Source: Ophiura sarsii (lineage: Eukaryota > Echinodermata > Ophiuroidea > Amphilepidida > Ophiuridae). From it: 64,000 nucleotides of DNA. The stretch is taken from positions 99,507,606 to 99,571,605 of the forward strand of contig CM069441.1 of the NCBI GenBank assembly GCA_035610835.1, written 5' to 3'. How positions within the stretch are numbered: position 1 is the first letter of the stretch; every line of letters starts with the position of its first letter. Position numbers and translations under genes: made by a program. Positions 1,754-59,350 of the stretch are shown piece after piece. The notes beneath the pieces were generated by a model. The model was not told the origin of the DNA. It did not search any database and worked only from the letters and a program-made list of their open reading frames with translations.

Positions 1754-4408
1754 GATGAAGCAAGACAAAACGTAATTATTAATATTCAAAATATTTGTAT
1801 GTGTTAGATAAAAATGTCATACAGATCGAGCCCTACAGGGTATGTCCACATATGAAGTGATAAGTGAAGAATAGACACCAGTAACCTTAGAATTGTGGGA
1901 TATTGATCAGAGTACTGTATACGATAGCATACAAGTACATACATACTAACGAACTGATGCCATATTTTCCCATGATTCATTGCAACATTTGTAAAGAAAT
2001 TCATAGGAATTTACAACAACAAAAACCTTTCAGGGACTGTTTATTTCAAATATGAAACTTAAAAATTATTAGACATCGAAGCTGAAGTTTTAAGGAACAA
2101 ATATGTGTCGGAATTTTAATGTGTCTGATTTGATGATTGATGATATTGAGAAAATTATAAAATTGTAAGGCATTATCTATTGTATACATTGAAAAGCTGA
2201 TATGCAAAAGGGCTTACATCCATTTTGGTGATTTTAAGAAAACAGCATGACAGTATTCTGGACTATAATCAAAACAATAATTTGTCGATCACAGCGTAAT
2301 GATTTCTAGCGTCCCATGCACCTGAGTGTGTATCATGCTGTACCGCGCCATTCGTACAGTTCACATGCACCGACAGCGCAAATGTTTTGGAACGCACTGC
2401 ATGCAATTAGACACGCTCAACCTTTGTAATATCGCGAGCGCTCGGATTATGACGCTGCGATCGACAAATTATTGTTTTGATTATAGTGTAATTGATCCTT
2501 TGAAATATTATTTGTATAATTAAAGAGGTTCAAAATATATACCAATCAGATACAGTATGTTTTTCAAATCAATCACTTATATTTTTTTGGTTATTATATT
2601 CTTTATTCTTTAAAAAATTGATGTAAGCCCTTTTGCAAAACATTTGGCATGGACATAAGTATTTTTGCATAACAACTCTGATTTCTGTATTGAATTACTA
2701 TGGGATGTGAGGCCTTTTTGCAACAAATTAACCACATTGCTAGAAACTACTACCAAAATACTATGATATTGCTGGTTATAACTCATTAAAAAAATTGAAT
2801 GTAAGCCCTTTTGCAAAACATTTTTCATGGATGTAAGTTCTTTTGTGTTTTCAAATTTTGCACAGAAAAGTATATGACCAGGAGCTACTTTTGTTTAAAA
2901 GTTACAAAGTAGCCTATGGTGTACATATGCTTAATTCGAGGCTTGTACTTTGTTATGGTTTAAGTTCTTTATTTTCATATCTTGAGTATAAAGTATCCAG
3001 TCATGCAACTTTTTGGGCAATGAACCACAATTCAGGAAAATTGGTGTTGGACCACAGAGTCCATTTCTCCGCTAATATCCCACATTAAGGAATCATTTAC
3101 AAGCGCTGATTTTGCAACAAACTTGTATGCAGAGCTGGAGCTATAGTAGATTCATAAACTCTGGCGCATCGGTATCGATTTTGGACCTCGTCCATTGGGC
3201 GTTAGAGGAACCCATTTTGACCAATGATGAAACAGCGGTACTTTTATAGATGTTATTATCATGATTATTTGCGCTCCATAATCAAATGCTATTCATGATA
3301 GTGTGGCTTTATGAATAGGGCTGATCATATAGCTTTACAATCACGACAACCAAAAACTTAATCCAGCAGCTTCAAATGTGTATCCCTTTGGAAGCGGTTA
3401 CCACAATAAAAACAAATCGACCATCATCGACCGTATACAGGTTTCGAAAGAAAAATATTATGTATGTCATTTTACCTATTCATAATTTAGTGGATACTTT
3501 TTATTATTTTCCGTTTTTATTATGCACGTGGAATAAAGGAAACATTAAAATGAAAATAACAGTTCTACGTATTTATTTGCGAGAAAAACCCGGAAAATAA
3601 TTCAATAATCATTTTTTTATATACATGTACCTAGGTACAAAACCATTTGTCCTAATTAAATGGAAAAACAGTTATATCAACCAAGATACGGATTATAAAC
3701 GTTACTTTAAGTATTTCTGGCTATGAGACCACCTGAATACCTTTATCAAATTATCTGAATAACAATACATTTCTTTATCGTTATGCCGATAATCCAACCG
3801 CAAGTTCCCTGTCACTAGGTACATAGTGGTGACTACATCACAGTAGTACATTACACGAAGACACGGTATTAACCTTGCATATTACGATTAAATTCGAATG
3901 CCTCCCCCTCTTTTGCTTCTGTTACCTCTTTACTGAAATGGTAAATCGCTAAAATCGGCCAATGTCTGCGAATCGACTATAACTACTAACACATATCCCA
4001 CCTTCACCCCCCCCCCCCCCCCCCACCCAATCAATGTTGAGGGTCCCAACGACCCGCACAGATGAAACGGTTCCGAACAACATTGAATGGGGGGGACTGG
4101 GTTAATATTAACAAAGTCCTCAAAGTGTTCCAACCGTTATTTCTTGGATTGCAGTCCCAAATGAACTGTGTAGTATGGCGCGTAGCTGCACACTTAGTTA
4201 TTTAGGACCCATGTTTAGGATATATTTTGTTGCGATTTTGGAATCACTGAAATTATACCCATGTTTAGCAAATTTTTGCAAAAAGGTGCTCCATTCGACT
4301 GGCACGGCCTGATGTACATGTATATCTCATATGTACGGATATTCCATAAAAGATCTTATTTCACAAAACGCTCTCTGATGTGCACAACTACCCCATAAGG
4401 GAATGCTA
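1754..4408. other. Intergenic region with small repeats
   Basis: No credible exon was seen. The stretch holds the inverted-repeat element at 2262-2487, two direct copies (2622 and 2798) and one inverted copy (about 2200) of a short unit ATGTAAGCCCTTTTGC, and a poly-C tract near 4010-4024. Confidence 0.5.
2262..2487. mobile_element. Small inverted-repeat element (MITE-like)
   Basis: Terminal inverted repeats of about 40 bases start ACTATAATCAAAACAATAAT at the left; their complement ends at 2487. The interior is unusually CpG-rich (CGCGAGCGC, GTACCGCGCC) for this AT-rich area. No frame could encode a transposase. No clear target duplication was found. Confidence 0.6.
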
Positions 4409-48453: not shown

Positions 48454-48835
48454 TCCTACATCATTCATCTTAGCAATCTGTATGCTCGTAAATCCTACGT
48501 CATTCATATTAGCACGCTGTATGCTCGTAAATCCTACGTCATTCATATTAGCATGCTGTATGCTCGTAAATCCTACGTCATTCATATTAGCACGCTGTAT
48601 GCTCGTAAATCCTACGTCATTCATATTAGCATGCTGTATGCTCGTAAATCCTACGTCATTCATATTAGCAAGCTGTATGCTCGTAAATCCTACGTCATTC
48701 ATATTAGCATGCTGTATGCTCGTAAATCCTACGTCATTCATATTAGCATGCTGTATGCTCGTAAATCCTACGTCATTCATATTAGCATGCTGTATGCTCG
48801 TAAATCCTACGTCATTCATATTAGCACGCTGTATG
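48454..48835. repeat. 39-base minisatellite, left part
   Basis: About 9.7 units of a 39-base repeat containing ATGCTCGTAAATCCTACGTC and ATTCATATTAGCA(C/T)GC. It is one array with 50886-52698, split by the LTR element. A poly-C run precedes it. The period is a multiple of three, so several frames on both strands stay open for its whole length; these are not genes. Confidence 0.95.
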
Positions 48836-48968
48836 TGTATTACTTTGTATAGCAACTTTATTCACTCATAACAACAACTCAGTCGGCCATGATAACGAGG
48901 TAACTTGGAAGTGTACCTTGGCGGTACTTTGGTCTCCGATCAAATAGTCCCTATCATGATTCATGACA
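48836..48968 (-). repeat. 3' LTR of the deleted Gypsy element
   Basis: Identical to the other LTR over 124 bases, with 7 extra bases (a TCATGA-type duplication) near its outer-polypurine end. AATAAA on the minus strand lies close to the LTR end. Confidence 0.93.
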
Positions 48969-49213
48969 TCCCCCTTTCCTTACAAAAAAGTAAAATATTG
49001 CTTCCACAAAAATATTATTCCACGCAAATAAGTGACATTGTTATAAAGGTTCAGTAACATTGAATTTGTGTGAAAATTTGCAATAAAAGTGGCAAAAAAA
49101 GTAATCAAAGAGTGCCTGTGTGATTATTGTGTCTTGGAACGCCTTAGATTATGATACGCGTAATAGCACAGGAGATATTAACACATTACCACATTAACGC
49201 AGCGCACGCGTTT

Positions 49214-50779
49214 TTAATTATATTTGTCCCTGAAGCGGGACGGTTGGCGGCTAACCCTTCCTGAGCGTGTAATTGTTGCACCCGTATTCTGCGCTGATGG
49301 CTTCGGTTGTCCAGGTGTGGGTGCTGGTGGATCATGTGGTTTCTCAGGTAGGTCTTGTGTCAGCAACGGGCTGGTGCCAGGATCAGCGAAGGACACACTT
49401 GTTGGGCGTTTGTGGGCGAGCTCTCTTAAGTGTGATCGGTTGCGTCTGTAGGAGCCTCCATTCGGGGTTTCAACTACGTATGACCGTGGTTCGTCTGCAA
49501 CCCTTTGAATGGTTGCTGGTGACCATGAGCTCTTATCTGTGTCCTGCATGTATACCTTCTGTCCAGGGTACAGTGGTGGAAGAGCTGGTCCGGCTCTACG
49601 GTCATGCTGATCCCTCATCTGGTCTTGCTTATTTAGAAGATTCTCGTTGATATTACTCTTAGTCACGATATTGTGACTAGGAAGTAGGGTTGTTATTGGT
49701 CTCCCGAACAAGATTTCTGCTGGTGAGGGAAGGTTGGAGTCAATCGGAGTTGCTCTCAAATGCAGCATGGCTATGTCTATGTCACCATTGGTCGCTATGC
49801 ATTTTTTTATGGTGCTTTTGATGGTCTGCACGAACCTCTCTGCCATGCCATTCGATCTTGGATATCTGGGTGATGACGTGGTGTGTTGTATCCCCCAGTC
49901 TTCCATCAGTTTCTGGAACGGTTCTTCAGTAAACTGGGTGGCGTTGTCGGAAACTACTTCCCTGGGTTTTCCAAATAAGCTGAAAATCTCCGAGAAAATT
50001 TTTGCGATCGTGCCGCTCTTGATGCTGTTTAGTTTTTTTACGATCGGAAACTTGGAGTGGTAGTCGACCAGTACAATGTAGTCTATTCCTCCGAGGGTGA
50101 ATATATCTGTTGCGATCTTCATCCAAGGCTGTGACGGAATGTCGTGAGGCACAAGCGGTTCCTTCCTTTGGTTTGGCATGTTTTCCATGCATGTTTCGCA
50201 TGTCTTTACCACATCTTCGATGTCTTTGTTTATGTTGGGCCAGTAGACGGACTGTCGTGCCAGACGTCTTGTCTTTTCGATACCCATGTGACCATGGTGC
50301 AGCTGGTTGATGATATCTACTCTGAGGGGTTCCGGAATCACGACCTGCTGTCCTTTGAAAATAACTCCGTTGGATTTTCCTAATTCATCTCTGAGGGACC
50401 AGTATGGTCTGAGGTCGGTAGGTAGTCCTTGAATCGTTTCTGGCCACCCTTCATTGATGAACTGTTCCAACTGTCTCAAGATCGGGTCTTGCTTGGTGTT
50501 CTCTATTAGTTGTACTTGCTTCAGCGGACCGAAGTTGACCAAGTCAACAGTAAGGTACATGCTGTCCACCTGTAGGTCCAGAGGTATATCTTCAGCTTTT
50601 TTTTTGTTTGGTAGTCTGCTCAGGGTGTCGGAGATGATCATGTATTTTCCTGGCTTGTATATGACCGTGAAGTTGTATCCTTGTACTTTCACTAGAAGAC
50701 GTTGGAGTCTTGGTGGTGCGCTTGTAAGCGGCTTCTTGCATATCCCGCCGCTGCCACCATGTATTACTTTGTATAGCAA
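49214..50779 (-). CDS. Intact 521-codon frame: RNase H end plus full integrase
   Basis: The product would cut and join element DNA into host DNA. The frame begins at an ATG inside the 5' LTR and reads through the primer-binding region (residues about 1-12). At residue 13 it enters the C-terminal end of a Gypsy RNase H (KKPLTSAPPRLQRLL, YKPGKYMIISDTLSRLP). The integrase follows: an HHCC zinc finger (His 161-164, Cys194, Cys197), then a catalytic triad Asp225, Asp278 and Glu314 with 35 residues between the last two. Next comes a C-terminal SH3-like module (about WSPATIQRVADEPRSYVVET) and a basic tail. No stop or frameshift breaks it. The usual upstream polyprotein is gone, so this frame could make a stand-alone integrase if the LTR drives it. 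That is inference; a simple deletion derivative is the default reading. Confidence 0.9.
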   Translation of the reverse strand: MLYKVIHGGSGGICKKPLTSAPPRLQRLLVKVQGYNFTVIYKPGKYMIISDTLSRLPNKKKAEDIPLDLQVDSMYLTVDLVNFGPLKQVQLIENTKQDPILRQLEQFINEGWPETIQGLPTDLRPYWSLRDELGKSNGVIFKGQQVVIPEPLRVDIINQLHHGHMGIEKTRRLARQSVYWPNINKDIEDVVKTCETCMENMPNQRKEPLVPHDIPSQPWMKIATDIFTLGGIDYIVLVDYHSKFPIVKKLNSIKSGTIAKIFSEIFSLFGKPREVVSDNATQFTEEPFQKLMEDWGIQHTTSSPRYPRSNGMAERFVQTIKSTIKKCIATNGDIDIAMLHLRATPIDSNLPSPAEILFGRPITTLLPSHNIVTKSNINENLLNKQDQMRDQHDRRAGPALPPLYPGQKVYMQDTDKSSWSPATIQRVADEPRSYVVETPNGGSYRRNRSHLRELAHKRPTSVSFADPGTSPLLTQDLPEKPHDPPAPTPGQPKPSAQNTGATITRSGRVSRQPSRFRDKYN

Positions 50780-50885
50780 CTTTATTCACTCATAACAACA
50801 ACTCAGTCGGCCATGATAACGAGGTAACTTGGAAGTGTACCTTGGCGGTACTTTGGTCTCCGATCAAATAGTCCCTATCATGACA
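50760..50885 (-). repeat. 5' LTR of the deleted Gypsy element
   Basis: 126 bases. On the minus strand it starts TGTCATGATAGGGAC and ends CAAAGTAATACA, with AATAAA near the end. It is short for a Gypsy LTR. Confidence 0.93.
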
Positions 50886-52698
50886 GTATGCTCGTAAATC
50901 CTACGTCATTCATATTAGCACGCTGTATGCTCGTAAATCCTACGTCATTCATATTAGCACGCTGTATGCTCGTAAATCCTACGTCATTCATATTAGCAAG
51001 CTGTATGCTCGTAAATCTTACGTCACTCATATTAGCACGCTGTATGCTCGTAAATCCTAAGTCATTCATATTAGCATGCTTAGCGCTGTATGCTCATAAA
51101 TCCTACGTCATTCACATTAGCATGCTGCATGCTCGTAAATCCTACGTCATTCACATTAGCACACTGTATGCTGGTAAATCCTACGTCATTCATATTAGCA
51201 CGCTGAATGCTTGTAAATCCTACGTCATTCATATTAGCACGCTGTATGCTCGTAAATCCTACGTCATTCATATTAGCACGCTGTATGCTCGTAAATCCTA
51301 CGTCATTCATATTAGCACGCTGTATGCTCGTAAATCCTACGTCATTCATATTAGCACGCTGTATGCTTGTAAATCCTACGTCATTCATATTAGCACGCTG
51401 TATGCTCGTAAATCCTACGTCATTCATATTAGCACGCTGTATGCTCGTAAATCCTACGTCATTCATATTAGCACGCTATATGCTCGTAAATCCTACGTCA
51501 TTCATATTAGCACGCTGTATGCTCGTGAATCCTACGTCATTCAAATCAGCACGCTGTATGCTCGTAAATCCTACGTCATTCATATTAGCACGCTGTATGC
51601 TTGTAAATCCTACGTAATTCATATTAGCATGCTGTATGCTCAAAAATCCTACGTAATTCATATTAGCACGCTGTATGCTCGTAAATCCTACTTCATTCAT
51701 ATTAGCATGCTGTATGCTTGTAAATCCTACGTCATTCATCTTAGCACGCTGTATGCTCGTAAATCCTACGTCATTCATATTAGCATGCTGTATGCTCGTA
51801 AATCCTACGTATTTCATATTAGCATGCTGTATGCTCGTAAATCCTACGTCATTCATATTAGCACGCTGTATGCTCGTAAATCTTACGTCACTCATATTAG
51901 CACGCTGTATGCTCGTAAATCCTAAGTCATTCATATTAGCATGCTGTACGCTGTATGCTCGTAAATCTTACGTCACTCATATTAGCACGCTGTATGCTCG
52001 TAAATCCTAAGTCATTCATATTAGCATGCTGTATGCTCATAAATCCTACGTCATTCACATTAGCACGCTGCATGCTCGTAAATCCTACGTCATTCACATT
52101 AGCACACTGTACGCTGGTAAATCCTACGTCATTCATATTAGCACGCTGAATGCTTGTTAATCCTACGTCATTCATATTAGCACGCTGTATGCTCGTAAAT
52201 CCTACGTCATTCATATTAGCACGCTGTATGCTCGTAAATCCTACGTCATTCATATTAGCACGCTGTATGCTCGTAAATCCTACGTCATTCATATTAGCAT
52301 GCTGTATGCTCGTAAATCCTATGTCATTCATATTAGCACGCTGTATGCTCGTAAATCCTACGTCATTCATATTAGCATGCTGTATGCTCGTAAATCCTAC
52401 GTCATTCATATTAGCACGCTGTATGCTCGTAAATCCTACGTCATTCATATTAGCATGCTGTATGCTCGTAAATCCTACGTCATTCATATTAGCACGCTGT
52501 ATGCTCGTAAATCCTACGTCATTCATATTAGCATGCTGTATGCTCGTAAATCCTACGTCATTCATATTAGCACGCTGTATGCTCGTAAATCCTACGTCAT
52601 TCATATTAGCATGCTGTATGCTTGTAAATCCTACGTCATTCATATTAGCACGCTGTATGCTTGTAAATCCTACGTCATTCATATTAGCATGCTGTATA
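50886..52698. repeat. 39-base minisatellite, right part
   Basis: About 46 units of the same repeat as 48454-48835. Each unit has a TACGTCA core, a CRE-like half. From about 52290 the units alternate strictly between GCACGC and GCATGC, giving a 78-base higher-order period. A variant block (TCTTACGTCACTC then CCTAAGTCATT) near 51010 recurs near 51880 and 51960, showing internal segment duplication. Confidence 0.95.
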
Positions 52699-52903
52699 CT
52701 CAGCTCTGTATGAAGAACAGAATTTATGTGTTAGAAAGTTAGGAACGTCAGATGACTATGGACTATTTCAAATAATTGTAAAAGCCTGTTCAAGTATATA
52801 TTATGAGATCTTTTTCAAAATTTACACATTTACACATTTTTTTCTCTCTCTATAATGAAGTTTGACAATCAAGAAAGACATTGGACTCATAAATCGATCT
52901 TAA

Positions 52904-57039: not shown

Positions 57040-57275
57040 AGATGACACTTATAAATCCCGAGGAGGTAGGCCTATCACTTGAGAGGATAAGTGGGGATAT
57101 CTTTTATAATCACCATTATATTAACCCTAACTCCGGTTTAGGGGTTTTGACCGGGATCACAATTTTTGTGGAAAAAACACCAACTAAATCTCAAGGGAAC
57201 TTGCCGGGATTCGATCCAGGGACCCTCCGTTCTCAATCCCATTGTCCCACCCACTAAGCCACAGCCCTCAGCTAC
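57040..57275 (-). repeat. tRNA-derived SINE (minus strand)
   Basis: On the minus strand the A-box-like TGGCTTAGTGGG and B box GGATCGAATCCC are set at tRNA-like spacing (about 57205-57270). The SINE body follows down to about 57040. Confidence 0.6.
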
Positions 57276-57376
57276 TCATTCGCGCAGTATACTGCGCTCA
57301 CTTTTATAGGCTCGGTTGACTACATCGCTAGATGACTGGAGAAGCTAGACATCGACCCACAATGTCGATTTATTTT

Positions 57377-57938
57377 GTACTAACACAGGTACAAAGTTGC
57401 CCACATGGTTAGTAGACAAGTTAGTAGACAAGTTGATACTAACACAGGTACAAAGTTGCCCACATGGTTGGTAGACAAGTTAGTAGACAAGTTGATACTA
57501 ACACAGGTACAAAGTTGCCCACATGGTTGGTAGACAAGTTAGTAGACAAGTTGATACTAACACAGGTACAAAGTTGCCCACATGGTTAGTAGACAAGTTA
57601 GTAGACAAGTTGATACTAACACAGGTACAAAGTTGCCCACATGGTTGGTAGACAAGTTAGTAGACAAGTTGATACTAACACAGGTACAAAGTTGCCCACA
57701 TGGTTGGTAGACAAGTTAGTAGACAAGTTGATACTAACACAGGTACAAAGTTGCCCACATGGTTGGTAGACAAGTTAGTAGACAAGTTGATACTAACACA
57801 GGTACAAAGTTGCCCACATGGTTGGTAGACAAGTTAGTAGACAAGTTGATACTAACACAGGTACAAAGTTGCCCACATGGTTAGTAGACAAGTTAGTAGA
57901 CAAGTTGATACTAACACAGGTACAAAGTTGCCCACATG
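57377..57938. repeat. 59-base tandem repeat, about 9.5 units
   Basis: Unit: TTGATACTAACACAGGTACA then AAGTTGCCCACATGGTTGGT and AGACAAGTTAGTAGACAAG. Units differ only at GGTT(G/A)GT, so the array is recent or homogenised. It has no long open frame, since 59 is not a multiple of three. Confidence 0.95.
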
Positions 57939-57939
57939 A

Positions 57940-59350
57940 ATGTTAATGAGTTTATTTAGGTGATTGCACGAACAAACCTGCCGATTTTGCATTAAAAAAA
58001 GGCGCTATTATTAATTATAGATATTAACTTAATAACTAGATTTCAGAATGTTAACGTCTTTTGAAGAGTAACTTGATTAATAATTTTGACCATATGGGAA
58101 ACTCCAGTGGTGGCACCAGGGGGTTTAGGGATCATCAAACTGCACCCCTAAGTTTGTTTCCCTGAAGTCAAATGTATATTTTGAATGTTATTGAAGTTAT
58201 GTCAAAATACCTAAGATTATAGTGTGGAATGTTTCAGACAAAATTAGGCACATTTAAGGAAATTTTACTGGAAAAGGCAAAAATGTCAGCACGCATCTTG
58301 CTTTGCATTTTTTTTACATTTTACTTACATATTATTCTTCCCCCTTTCTACCATGACGGAGTTGACCACCACTAGTTTCACTGGAAGGGGGGTGCCACCC
58401 CATATATCCCCAATGAGGACTTTGTTGAAATGAGCATAAAAAACCCACCAAAAAATATATATTTTATATTTTGCTTGAAAATATGGGGCGATTAAACTTG
58501 CCTTCGTTTGTAAGTCATTAATTATTCAAGTTAAGTCATTATTATGCTATCAAATGGCGAAGCAAGCTAGACAGATAGGAATGATCACATCTATTTATTT
58601 AACTAAGGGTGGGAGCGTGTCCTGGGAAACAGTGGTGTACCAAGCTTTTGGAAACTGGGAGGCCACGACAGGCATGATGTACCGACCATTTTTTTTTTTA
58701 CAGACTTCAATTTTTTTTGTTAAGTTGCCAATTCCCCCCCCCCCCATCAGCAGCTGAAATATTGGATATTGGTAAGTGGGGGGAGGATTGAGATTATCCT
58801 CAAAACCAGCCGAAAAAAATTGCATGGTCAAAATCAGAAATGTACCGACGGGGGCTTGTGTGTACCGACGGGGTTATTTCAGGGGGGCCCAGGGTACACC
58901 ACTGCCGGGAAATCCAATCCCGCCTAGTCCCGGGAGCAAAAATCACCTTCCCGAAACCGGAAACTAAAAGATACACAAATCAATAATGAGCTTCCTCAAA
59001 AAAGAAATTGTCAGCTAAATCACTCTGAATCATTGCAAATTTATAGGAGATTCACTTGAAATGGGATTTTTAGTCAAATCCGTGCATTTTCTTACACTTA
59101 TGCCCGCTAATATGTTATTTCACCACAGATTTTCACAACTTGGTTTATGGGTCGCATTTTGGATTTAAGTTGGAACATGTTGGACAACATTTTGACAAAA
59201 GATGGCACCCTAACAATCAGCCCAAAGTCTGTTTGGAGAAATTCAGGAATCCCAATACCCGCCAGAACAGTTAAATTGAATCCCGGGAGCATGATTTCCA
59301 CAAAATCCCAGGCCTAGAGTTAACACTATTCACTAGCTACATTTCAATTA
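57940..59350. other. Non-coding stretch
   Basis: A poly-C run lies at about 58735-58745; no exon recognised. Confidence 0.35.

Follow-up and report, generated by a model that had tools for sequence, protein, structure and literature searches.

A recent, internally deleted Ty3/Gypsy insertion in Ophiura sarsii with its left breakpoint at the end of tRNA-Leu-complementary sequence

How does an LTR retrotransposon without gag, protease, reverse transcriptase (RT) and most of RNase H come to carry, just behind its 5′ LTR, an intact integrase frame? The question is raised by an element of 2050 bp at positions 48836–50885, minus strand, of a 64,000-nucleotide stretch of the Ophiura sarsii genome, hereafter the window. 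The interior of this element consists of an RNase H tail, an integrase and a 3′ untranslated region (UTR), and its features and surroundings are as follows.

48454..48835, no strand: 39-bp host minisatellite, left part (Tandem Repeats Finder, 9.8 copies, 97% matches)
48831..48835, no strand: target-site duplication (TSD) GTATG, left copy, read from the sequence; the empty site restores the 39-bp unit
48836..48968, minus strand: 3′ LTR, 133 bp, TG...CA, with a 7-bp tandem duplication near the start of U3 (alignment with the 5′ LTR)
48969..48981, minus strand: sequence AAGGAAAGGGGGA, which we take from its motif to be the polypurine tract (PPT), adjoining the 3′ LTR
48982..49213, minus strand: 3′ UTR, the span from the TAA stop to the PPT
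49214..50744, minus strand: RNase H tail and complete integrase (HHCC, DD35E, conserved C-terminal tail), open frame
50639..50641, minus strand: first in-frame ATG, 475-aa product
50742..50744, minus strand: junction overlap GAT, common to nt 16–18 of the primer-binding site and to RNase H of sibling copies
50742..50759, minus strand: primer-binding site (PBS) TGGTGGCAGCGGCGGGAT, 18 nt, directly after the 5′ LTR
50760..50885, minus strand: 5′ LTR, 126 bp, with AATAAA
50886..50890, no strand: TSD GTATG, right copy, read from the sequence
50886..52701, no strand: 39-bp host minisatellite, right part (46.2 copies, 92% matches)

A sequence-only reading of the window had described this element as a young Gypsy deletion derivative, and its boundaries and age are borne out. 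The alignment of the two LTRs presents no substitution and a single 7-bp indel, the tandem duplication in the 3′ LTR, in agreement with the statement that they are identical apart from 7 bases. The GTATG duplication is exact on both sides of the element, as was also stated; when the host flanks are joined without the element, they give perfect 39-bp units (39/39 three times) with the register kept, and the repeat spacing across the insertion is 2094, which equals 39 + 2050 + 5. These results support a recent insertion of an internally deleted Ty3/Gypsy element with an intact integrase frame.

The element shares with the K02A2.6-like Ty3/Gypsy elements (Metaviridae) an HHCC/DD35E integrase with C-terminal tail, the 5-bp TSD, TG...CA LTRs, a tRNA PBS and the PPT, but differs from them in lacking gag, protease, RT and most of RNase H, and in its very short LTRs (126 and 133 bp). 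It can be classified as a Ty3/Gypsy derivative by its Gypsy-type integrase, LTR ends, PBS, PPT, 5-bp TSD and the domain order of the parent line, RT–RNase H–integrase, which is seen in the sibling locus L021, colinear with residues 46–870 of protein P0004. It is not an autonomous element, gag, protease and RT being absent. Ginger1 DNA transposons carry terminal inverted repeats; this class was rejected, since the only inverted pair in 48500–51300 is away from the element ends. Searches of the window with Rfam (gathering scores) and ARAGORN gave no match.

The frame stays open over 521 codons and runs without interruption into the RNase H tail and integrase, as the sequence-only reading held, but it does not have the start codon assigned to it inside the LTR. 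It opens with TTG at 50779, downstream of stop codons in the same frame within the LTR (standard code), and it has no ATG until 50641, in the RNase H tail. Upstream of that position are five ATGs, of which four belong to short ORFs closed before 50641. The frame matches integrase families only, namely Integrase_H2C2 (E 2.6e-18), rve (1.6e-10) and zf-H2C2, with a sub-threshold match to rve_3, which confirms the described loss of the other domains. An alignment of 16 sequences shows no variation at H161, C194, C197, D278 and E314 and next to none at H164 and D225, and the spacing of 35 residues between D278 and E314 agrees with the reported retention of HHCC and D-D-35-E. The integrase region can also be aligned to the Ty3 and PFV integrase chains, and the predicted protein is a complete Gypsy integrase.

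The best protein match of the frame is from Lytechinus variegatus (54%), and the echinoderm matches are only a lead for a possible placement in the Mag/SURL clade. Among the 120 relatives listed, eight start at the same Met as the window protein (P0001, P0019, P0035, P0050, P0053, P0083, P0091 and P0118). A junction shared with these database proteins was considered and rejected, since the common start falls on a Met that is conserved in RNase H, and other relatives start at a later Met. Scans for related loci with a single protein as query led nowhere. Alignment-based scans found 0 related loci in viral contigs and 12 in genome contigs, the best of which (35% identity) is in a record titled as a bacterial MAG; TGGTGGCAGCGG is absent from all 12. 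Domesticated integrase genes of the GIN1 type have their own start codon, have lost the LTRs and TSD and are conserved across species. The assignment to this class was rejected in view of the intact LTRs and TSD and the lack of an early in-frame ATG.

The deletion junction, expected near 50745, was mapped to 50742–50745; its proposed tRNA-copied nature, described below, was absent from the sequence-only reading. A 205-nt probe spanning the junction was compared with the host genome (1.57 Gb), which gave at least 42 matches, these counts being lower bounds. Forty matches were scored and only the window's own crosses the junction; among the 42, 8 places were not fetched, and none of them extends past probe position 125, the LTR end. 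Since the sibling LTR and PBS matches reach probe position 143 (PBS nt 18; a few reach 144–145) and the sibling RNase H matches begin at 141, the two sides overlap by GAT and there is no filler. At this position the RNase H side reads ..GAGATGAT/ATGC (the slash marks the break) in L021, L022 and L024, and ..GAGATTAT/ATGC in the more distant L029, with which the overlap is shorter than with the other three.

The DNA of the RNase H tail and integrase has at least 50 genomic matches, and two other copies among the matches listed are at least 95% identical to the window. Both are deleted elements: L022 (C2:65.69M) presents 99.1% identity over 1909 columns of the element and L021 (C13:63.2M) 95.5% over 1916 columns, and their junctions differ from that of the window. 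The search for other copies with the same junction, proposed together with the sequence-only reading, thus gave the window alone among the 40 matches scored, and the search for a full-length parent revealed none close to the window among the matches listed, whose counts are lower bounds. A single copy is one half of the condition that the sequence-only reading had set for its own refutation, the other half being a lack of transcripts. The native PBS of the exact subfamily is unseen because no close full-length copy was found. TRIMs are LTR elements of about 1 kb or less, non-coding and amplified; membership in this class was rejected for the window copy, with its 2050 bp, its 521-codon frame and a junction found once.

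The PBS is complementary to tRNA-Leu(AAG) in 17 of its 18 letters, and the complementarity ceases at nt 18, tRNA position 59 in the numbering that we adopt. The probability of a 17/18 match at one fixed site at the LTR end is P ~8e-10, and the runner-up 18-mer in the window has a score of 14 against the tRNA complement. Scoring was done against the human tRNA-Leu(AAG) 18-nt 3′ fragment ATCCCACCGCTGCCACCA, as printed in the accessible text of PMC9161985 (a longer form appears in the accessible text of PMC12025293). The host tRNA-Leu(AAG) genes L076–L078, found by ARAGORN, have the same 3′ end as the printed fragment and differ from the window PBS by one base, at nt 13. The available portion of PMC13191261 states that plus-strand strong-stop DNA ends before position 58 due to m1A58, and the end of the PBS match coincides with this end point.

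A survey of what follows the PBS included 13 loci in which an LTR end is followed by a TGG PBS (12 fetched and the window). Six of them continue into recognisable element sequence; the left breakpoint is located in tRNA-complementary sequence in all six, and the right breakpoints differ.

Window: left breakpoint at nt 18, partner RNase H
L021: left breakpoint at nt 18, partner RT
L026: left breakpoint at nt 18, then 2 unexplained nt (CA), partner 3′ UTR
L036: left breakpoint at nt 18, partner about 75 nt gag-like by eye, then integrase by alignment
L022: left breakpoint at nt 8, partner RT–RNase H connection
L025: left breakpoint beyond nt 18, partner RT

L025 has 39 of 41 nt matching antisense tRNA-Leu (L090, a host tRNA-Leu-like gene sequence) and RT comes next, and L026 is arranged in tandem as LTR-PBS-UTR-LTR-PBS-UTR-LTR. 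The junctions of L021 and L022 have 3-nt overlaps, GAT (judged against L024) and GCA, respectively; L029 reads ..TAA/TGTCC at the position of the L021 junction, and the overlap is shorter against it. The nt-8 piece of L022 could equally be encoded by the element. TSDs are present at the window, L021 and L026, a search for one at L022 found none, and the LTRs of L021 are identical. L097 has the same junction as L036 on the same contig, and L098 has sequence in common with L036 from within the PBS onward; because the 5′ parts of these loci differ, duplication of host DNA seems likelier than transposition as the source of this likeness. A derivative outside this pattern is L023, in which the LTR is cut at nt 100.

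Two other loci of the 13, L029 and L040, continue into a common leader (77% over 150 columns). Their tRNA matches extend over 11 nt and 9 nt, and their LTRs are diverged by about 15% and 25%, respectively. Used as a query against the genome, the L029 leader matched 17 places: L029 and L040, a single leader fragment with no LTR end, and 14 with the LTR end and PBS start only, so that in this search an LTR end plus leader is found only in L029 and L040. At PBS nt 12–18, ten of the 13 loci match the tRNA in 6 or 7 of 7 letters, against 0/7 in L022 and 1/7 in both L029 and L040 (L025 and L036, missed by the motif script, were read by inspection). The tRNA letters at nt 12–18 are not in L029 and L040, a comparison limited to these diverged leader-bearing copies.

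In the remaining five loci (L028, L035, L037, L038 and L039) a tRNA-type PBS leads into sequence without recognised identity; L037 and L038 have flanks in common and were counted as one event. The tRNA match of L039 extends past nt 18, with 34 of 38 letters. Rfam gave no tRNA match for L025 and L039, which weighs mildly against the tRNA reading; such a search may, however, overlook a tRNA that is incomplete and has a long variable arm.

Exact tRNA-Leu 3′-end sites number 46 in the host genome and 0 in a reversed-pattern control. Nineteen of these were fetched, comprising three clustered sites, which are tRNA genes (ARAGORN), and 16 others, two of which were cut twice (L079/L096 and L080/L095). 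Six of the 16 match a tRNA-Leu gene over 78–82 of 82 letters and are without CCA; the other ten are 3′ fragments with CCA that, read in antisense, are preceded by LTR-like ends (by eye). Among these ten, and in the same numbering, L088, L091 and L093 end just 3′ of position 37, the related pair L089 and L095 ends one nt before that stop, L081 and L084 end a few nt earlier than the position-37 group, and L083 and L096 end earlier still or match another isoacceptor. In L092 the tRNA read-through continues past position 37. These ends suggest a stop at position 37 in half of the ten read-throughs (5/10 within two nt).

We propose that the window element probably originated by the joining of plus-strand strong-stop DNA to internal cDNA, followed by integration of the short product. 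A Ty3/Gypsy element primed by tRNA-Leu would be reverse transcribed, and plus-strand synthesis from the polypurine tract would copy the LTR and then 18 nt of the tRNA still on the minus strand, halting before a modified A58. Ophiura sarsii tRNA-Leu would carry m1A58, as we infer, and nt 12–18 of the PBS would come from the tRNA rather than from the element. Instead of moving, as is usual, to the PBS end of the full minus strand, the strong-stop DNA would use the GAT of its 3′ end (..GGGAT) to pair with the minus strand at an internal position in RNase H. The partner minus strand would probably be incomplete, with the pairing at its end; this truncation, like the order of the steps, is what we infer. 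Both strands would be finished and integrase acting in trans would insert the short cDNA with the usual 5-bp duplication of the target, which gives the arrangement LTR-PBS(18)-RNase H tail-integrase-PPT-LTR.

As expected for strong-stop joining, the left breakpoint of the window is at the end of the tRNA-complementary sequence. The TSDs of the window, L021 and L026 and the identical LTRs of L021 are the expected trace of short-cDNA integration, although an internal deletion after insertion would leave both features in place as well. A short native PBS, as in the two leader-bearing copies (9–11 nt), would leave the strong-stop tail mismatched and favour the accident. If, on the other hand, the native PBS has 18 nt, the end-point match of the PBS and the contrast with the leader copies would carry less weight. 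The window copy keeps the cis sites LTR, PBS and PPT but has neither leader, gag nor RT, nor a start codon near the beginning of the frame, and therefore it is probably a functional dead end: a recent copy, and not a new gene.

An alternative origin that we regard as unlikely is that a larger insertion later lost its interior, or that RT skipped during minus-strand synthesis, with the breakpoint at the PBS due to chance or a weak hotspot and GAT assisting as microhomology. That case would leave LTRs and TSD no different from those observed, overlaps of 3 nt are typical of such deletions too, and the native PBS of the close subfamily has not been seen. However, all six mapped derivatives have their left breakpoint in tRNA-complementary sequence, and with uniform breakpoints the chance of hitting an 18-nt target is 0.4–1.2% each for the window, L021, L022 and L026, in a post hoc estimate that takes L029 as the yardstick, also lists L025 (left end beyond nt 18) and leaves out L036. 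Moreover, a later genomic deletion has no source for the antisense tRNA body of L025, which is therefore not the product of a deletion in genomic DNA. A retrocopy of a spliced subgenomic RNA, with a donor near the PBS and an acceptor in RNase H, would have a parallel, since spliced RNAs of retroelements can be copied, as with the HIV amplicons with splice breakpoints in the accessible text of PMC10986323. It is nevertheless highly improbable here: L021, L022 and L024 read ..GAGATG/ATATGC, which leaves no AG acceptor at the break on the right side, and siblings fuse the same left end to RT, to the 3′ UTR and to a gag-like site. Hardly any credence can be given to an assembly artefact within the minisatellite either, for although the insertion is inside a tandem array, a context prone to error in assemblies, the junction is within the element and outside satellite sequence, neither TSD nor register shows any deviation, and the same class of junction is present at other loci.

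The sequence-only reading had suggested a non-autonomous lineage or a stand-alone integrase. Taken as an amplified lineage with its integrase under selection, or as an integrase gene that starts in the LTR, this suggestion is in our view very unlikely. In favour of it, the frame is intact and the window deviates at only 5 of 72 columns that are invariant in 15 relatives, four of these in the non-homologous start derived from LTR and PBS (the same test on each relative gave 0–15 of 68–89 columns). In addition, integrase dN/dS against L021 is 0.16 (35 synonymous and 20 non-synonymous changes), and the other two close integrase copies, L022 and L021, are deleted elements too. That ratio can reflect constraint on the replicating parent line rather than on the deleted copy, and the counts against L022, the nearest copy (1 synonymous and 5 non-synonymous), are no evidence of selection. 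The LTR divergence has an upper bound of about 2.4% (0 substitutions), and even at this bound just 0.79 nonsense changes are expected in the frame; since this is less than one, the intact frame reflects youth and requires no selection. The junction is also unique among the at least 42 probe matches, close copies carry other junctions, and no in-frame ATG precedes 50641, with five ATGs upstream, so that the suggestion is not supported.

Internally deleted LTR elements are usually ascribed to unspecified template switching or to later deletion, and the inclusion of tRNA sequence in retroviral proviruses has been the subject of older reports. More broadly, though we would not put it at even chances, strong-stop joining could be a regular route to defective LTR elements in this genome. 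Here, a native PBS of 9–11 nt would free the mismatched tail to misprime, and the junctions would record stops at tRNA modifications, at position 58 (window, L021, L026 and L036) and near position 37 (5/10 of the other read-throughs). A junction that breaks off in host-tRNA letters points to the second strand transfer as the single step concerned, and LTR ends and tRNA sequences are all that is needed to count such junctions in a genome. They would also show where tRNA modifications halt reverse transcription in vivo, even in organisms for which these have never been measured.

Related observations come from HIV. According to the accessible text of PMC10986323, HIV strong-stop DNA moved in vitro to random sites, with large internal deletions as the result, and one group of amplicons has the strong-stop end as one breakpoint and a variable second one, as here. 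Those deleted HIV-1 cDNAs involve minus-strand strong-stop DNA in vitro, whereas here the strong-stop DNA would be plus-strand, in an animal genome and with tRNA letters as a marker. For HIV with tRNA-Lys,3, the available portion of PMC13191261 describes a main plus-strand strong-stop end before position 58 and minor longer products, one of them at 37; an end before position 58 and, as suggested above, one near 37 recur here, but read from genomic junctions and with tRNA-Leu. A literature search with most subscription journals outside it found, in the text accessible to it, no report of plus-strand strong-stop joining behind deletions of LTR elements.

Small LTR elements with PBS and PPT kept are also known as the TRIMs Helenus and Ajax, described in the accessible text of PMC10886601, and L026 is in the same size class. 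The tRNA sequence of Helenus is a promoter in its LTRs according to that text, whereas here it would be an antisense copy of the primer at the PBS. In the accessible part of PMC4558846, the probe primer for a tapeworm TRIM contains TGGTGGCAGCG.

The integrase piece occurs at three loci of one host contig, C5 (L036, L097 and L098), and at two of them it is preceded by the same stretch running from the primer-binding site (PBS) to a gag-like region, while at the third the PBS is represented by its end alone. Locus L023 (C2:80358700-80362500) has a target-site duplication (TSD), CTTAC; its 5′ LTR is truncated at nt 100, and a short stretch in the opposite orientation matches pol-like sequence.

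At host locus L028 (C3:46882000-46887400), the sequence reads as LTR, 18-nt PBS, ACCACA and ATTCC, in this order, and ATTCC is also found just before the LTR. On this reading, an LTR and PBS unit was possibly inserted with its own TSD, ATTCC; the presence of this motif on both sides may also be due to chance. A TRIM-like arrangement was observed at L026 (C15:9567200-9569000), in which LTR-PBS-3′UTR units lie in tandem over 785 bp, flanked by the TSD CTGTC.

CCA-bearing tRNA-Leu 3′ fragments adjoin LTR-like ends at ten host loci (L081, L083, L084, L088, L089, L091, L092, L093, L095 and L096), and five of the ten end no more than two nucleotides from tRNA position 37. Locus L025, which carries an LTR end and PBS, presents a strong hairpin at 3095-3211. 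The hairpin's matches to microRNA precursor families fall short of the gathering score, and it may represent an inverted-repeat insertion.

Gypsy pol sequence was also found in database contigs L001 and L002 and in protein P0020, and host contamination is likely for all three, since these records are named as bacterial MAGs. The ends of L001 and L002 are 77 nt long and (near-)identical, like those of circularised assemblies.

The 39-bp minisatellite at 48454-52701 of the window contains several open frames, which yield spurious ORFs of up to 365 codons from stop to stop, because 39 bp corresponds to 13 codons. The window also includes another array:

57260-58063, second tandem array, 59-bp spacing, ten registered copies.
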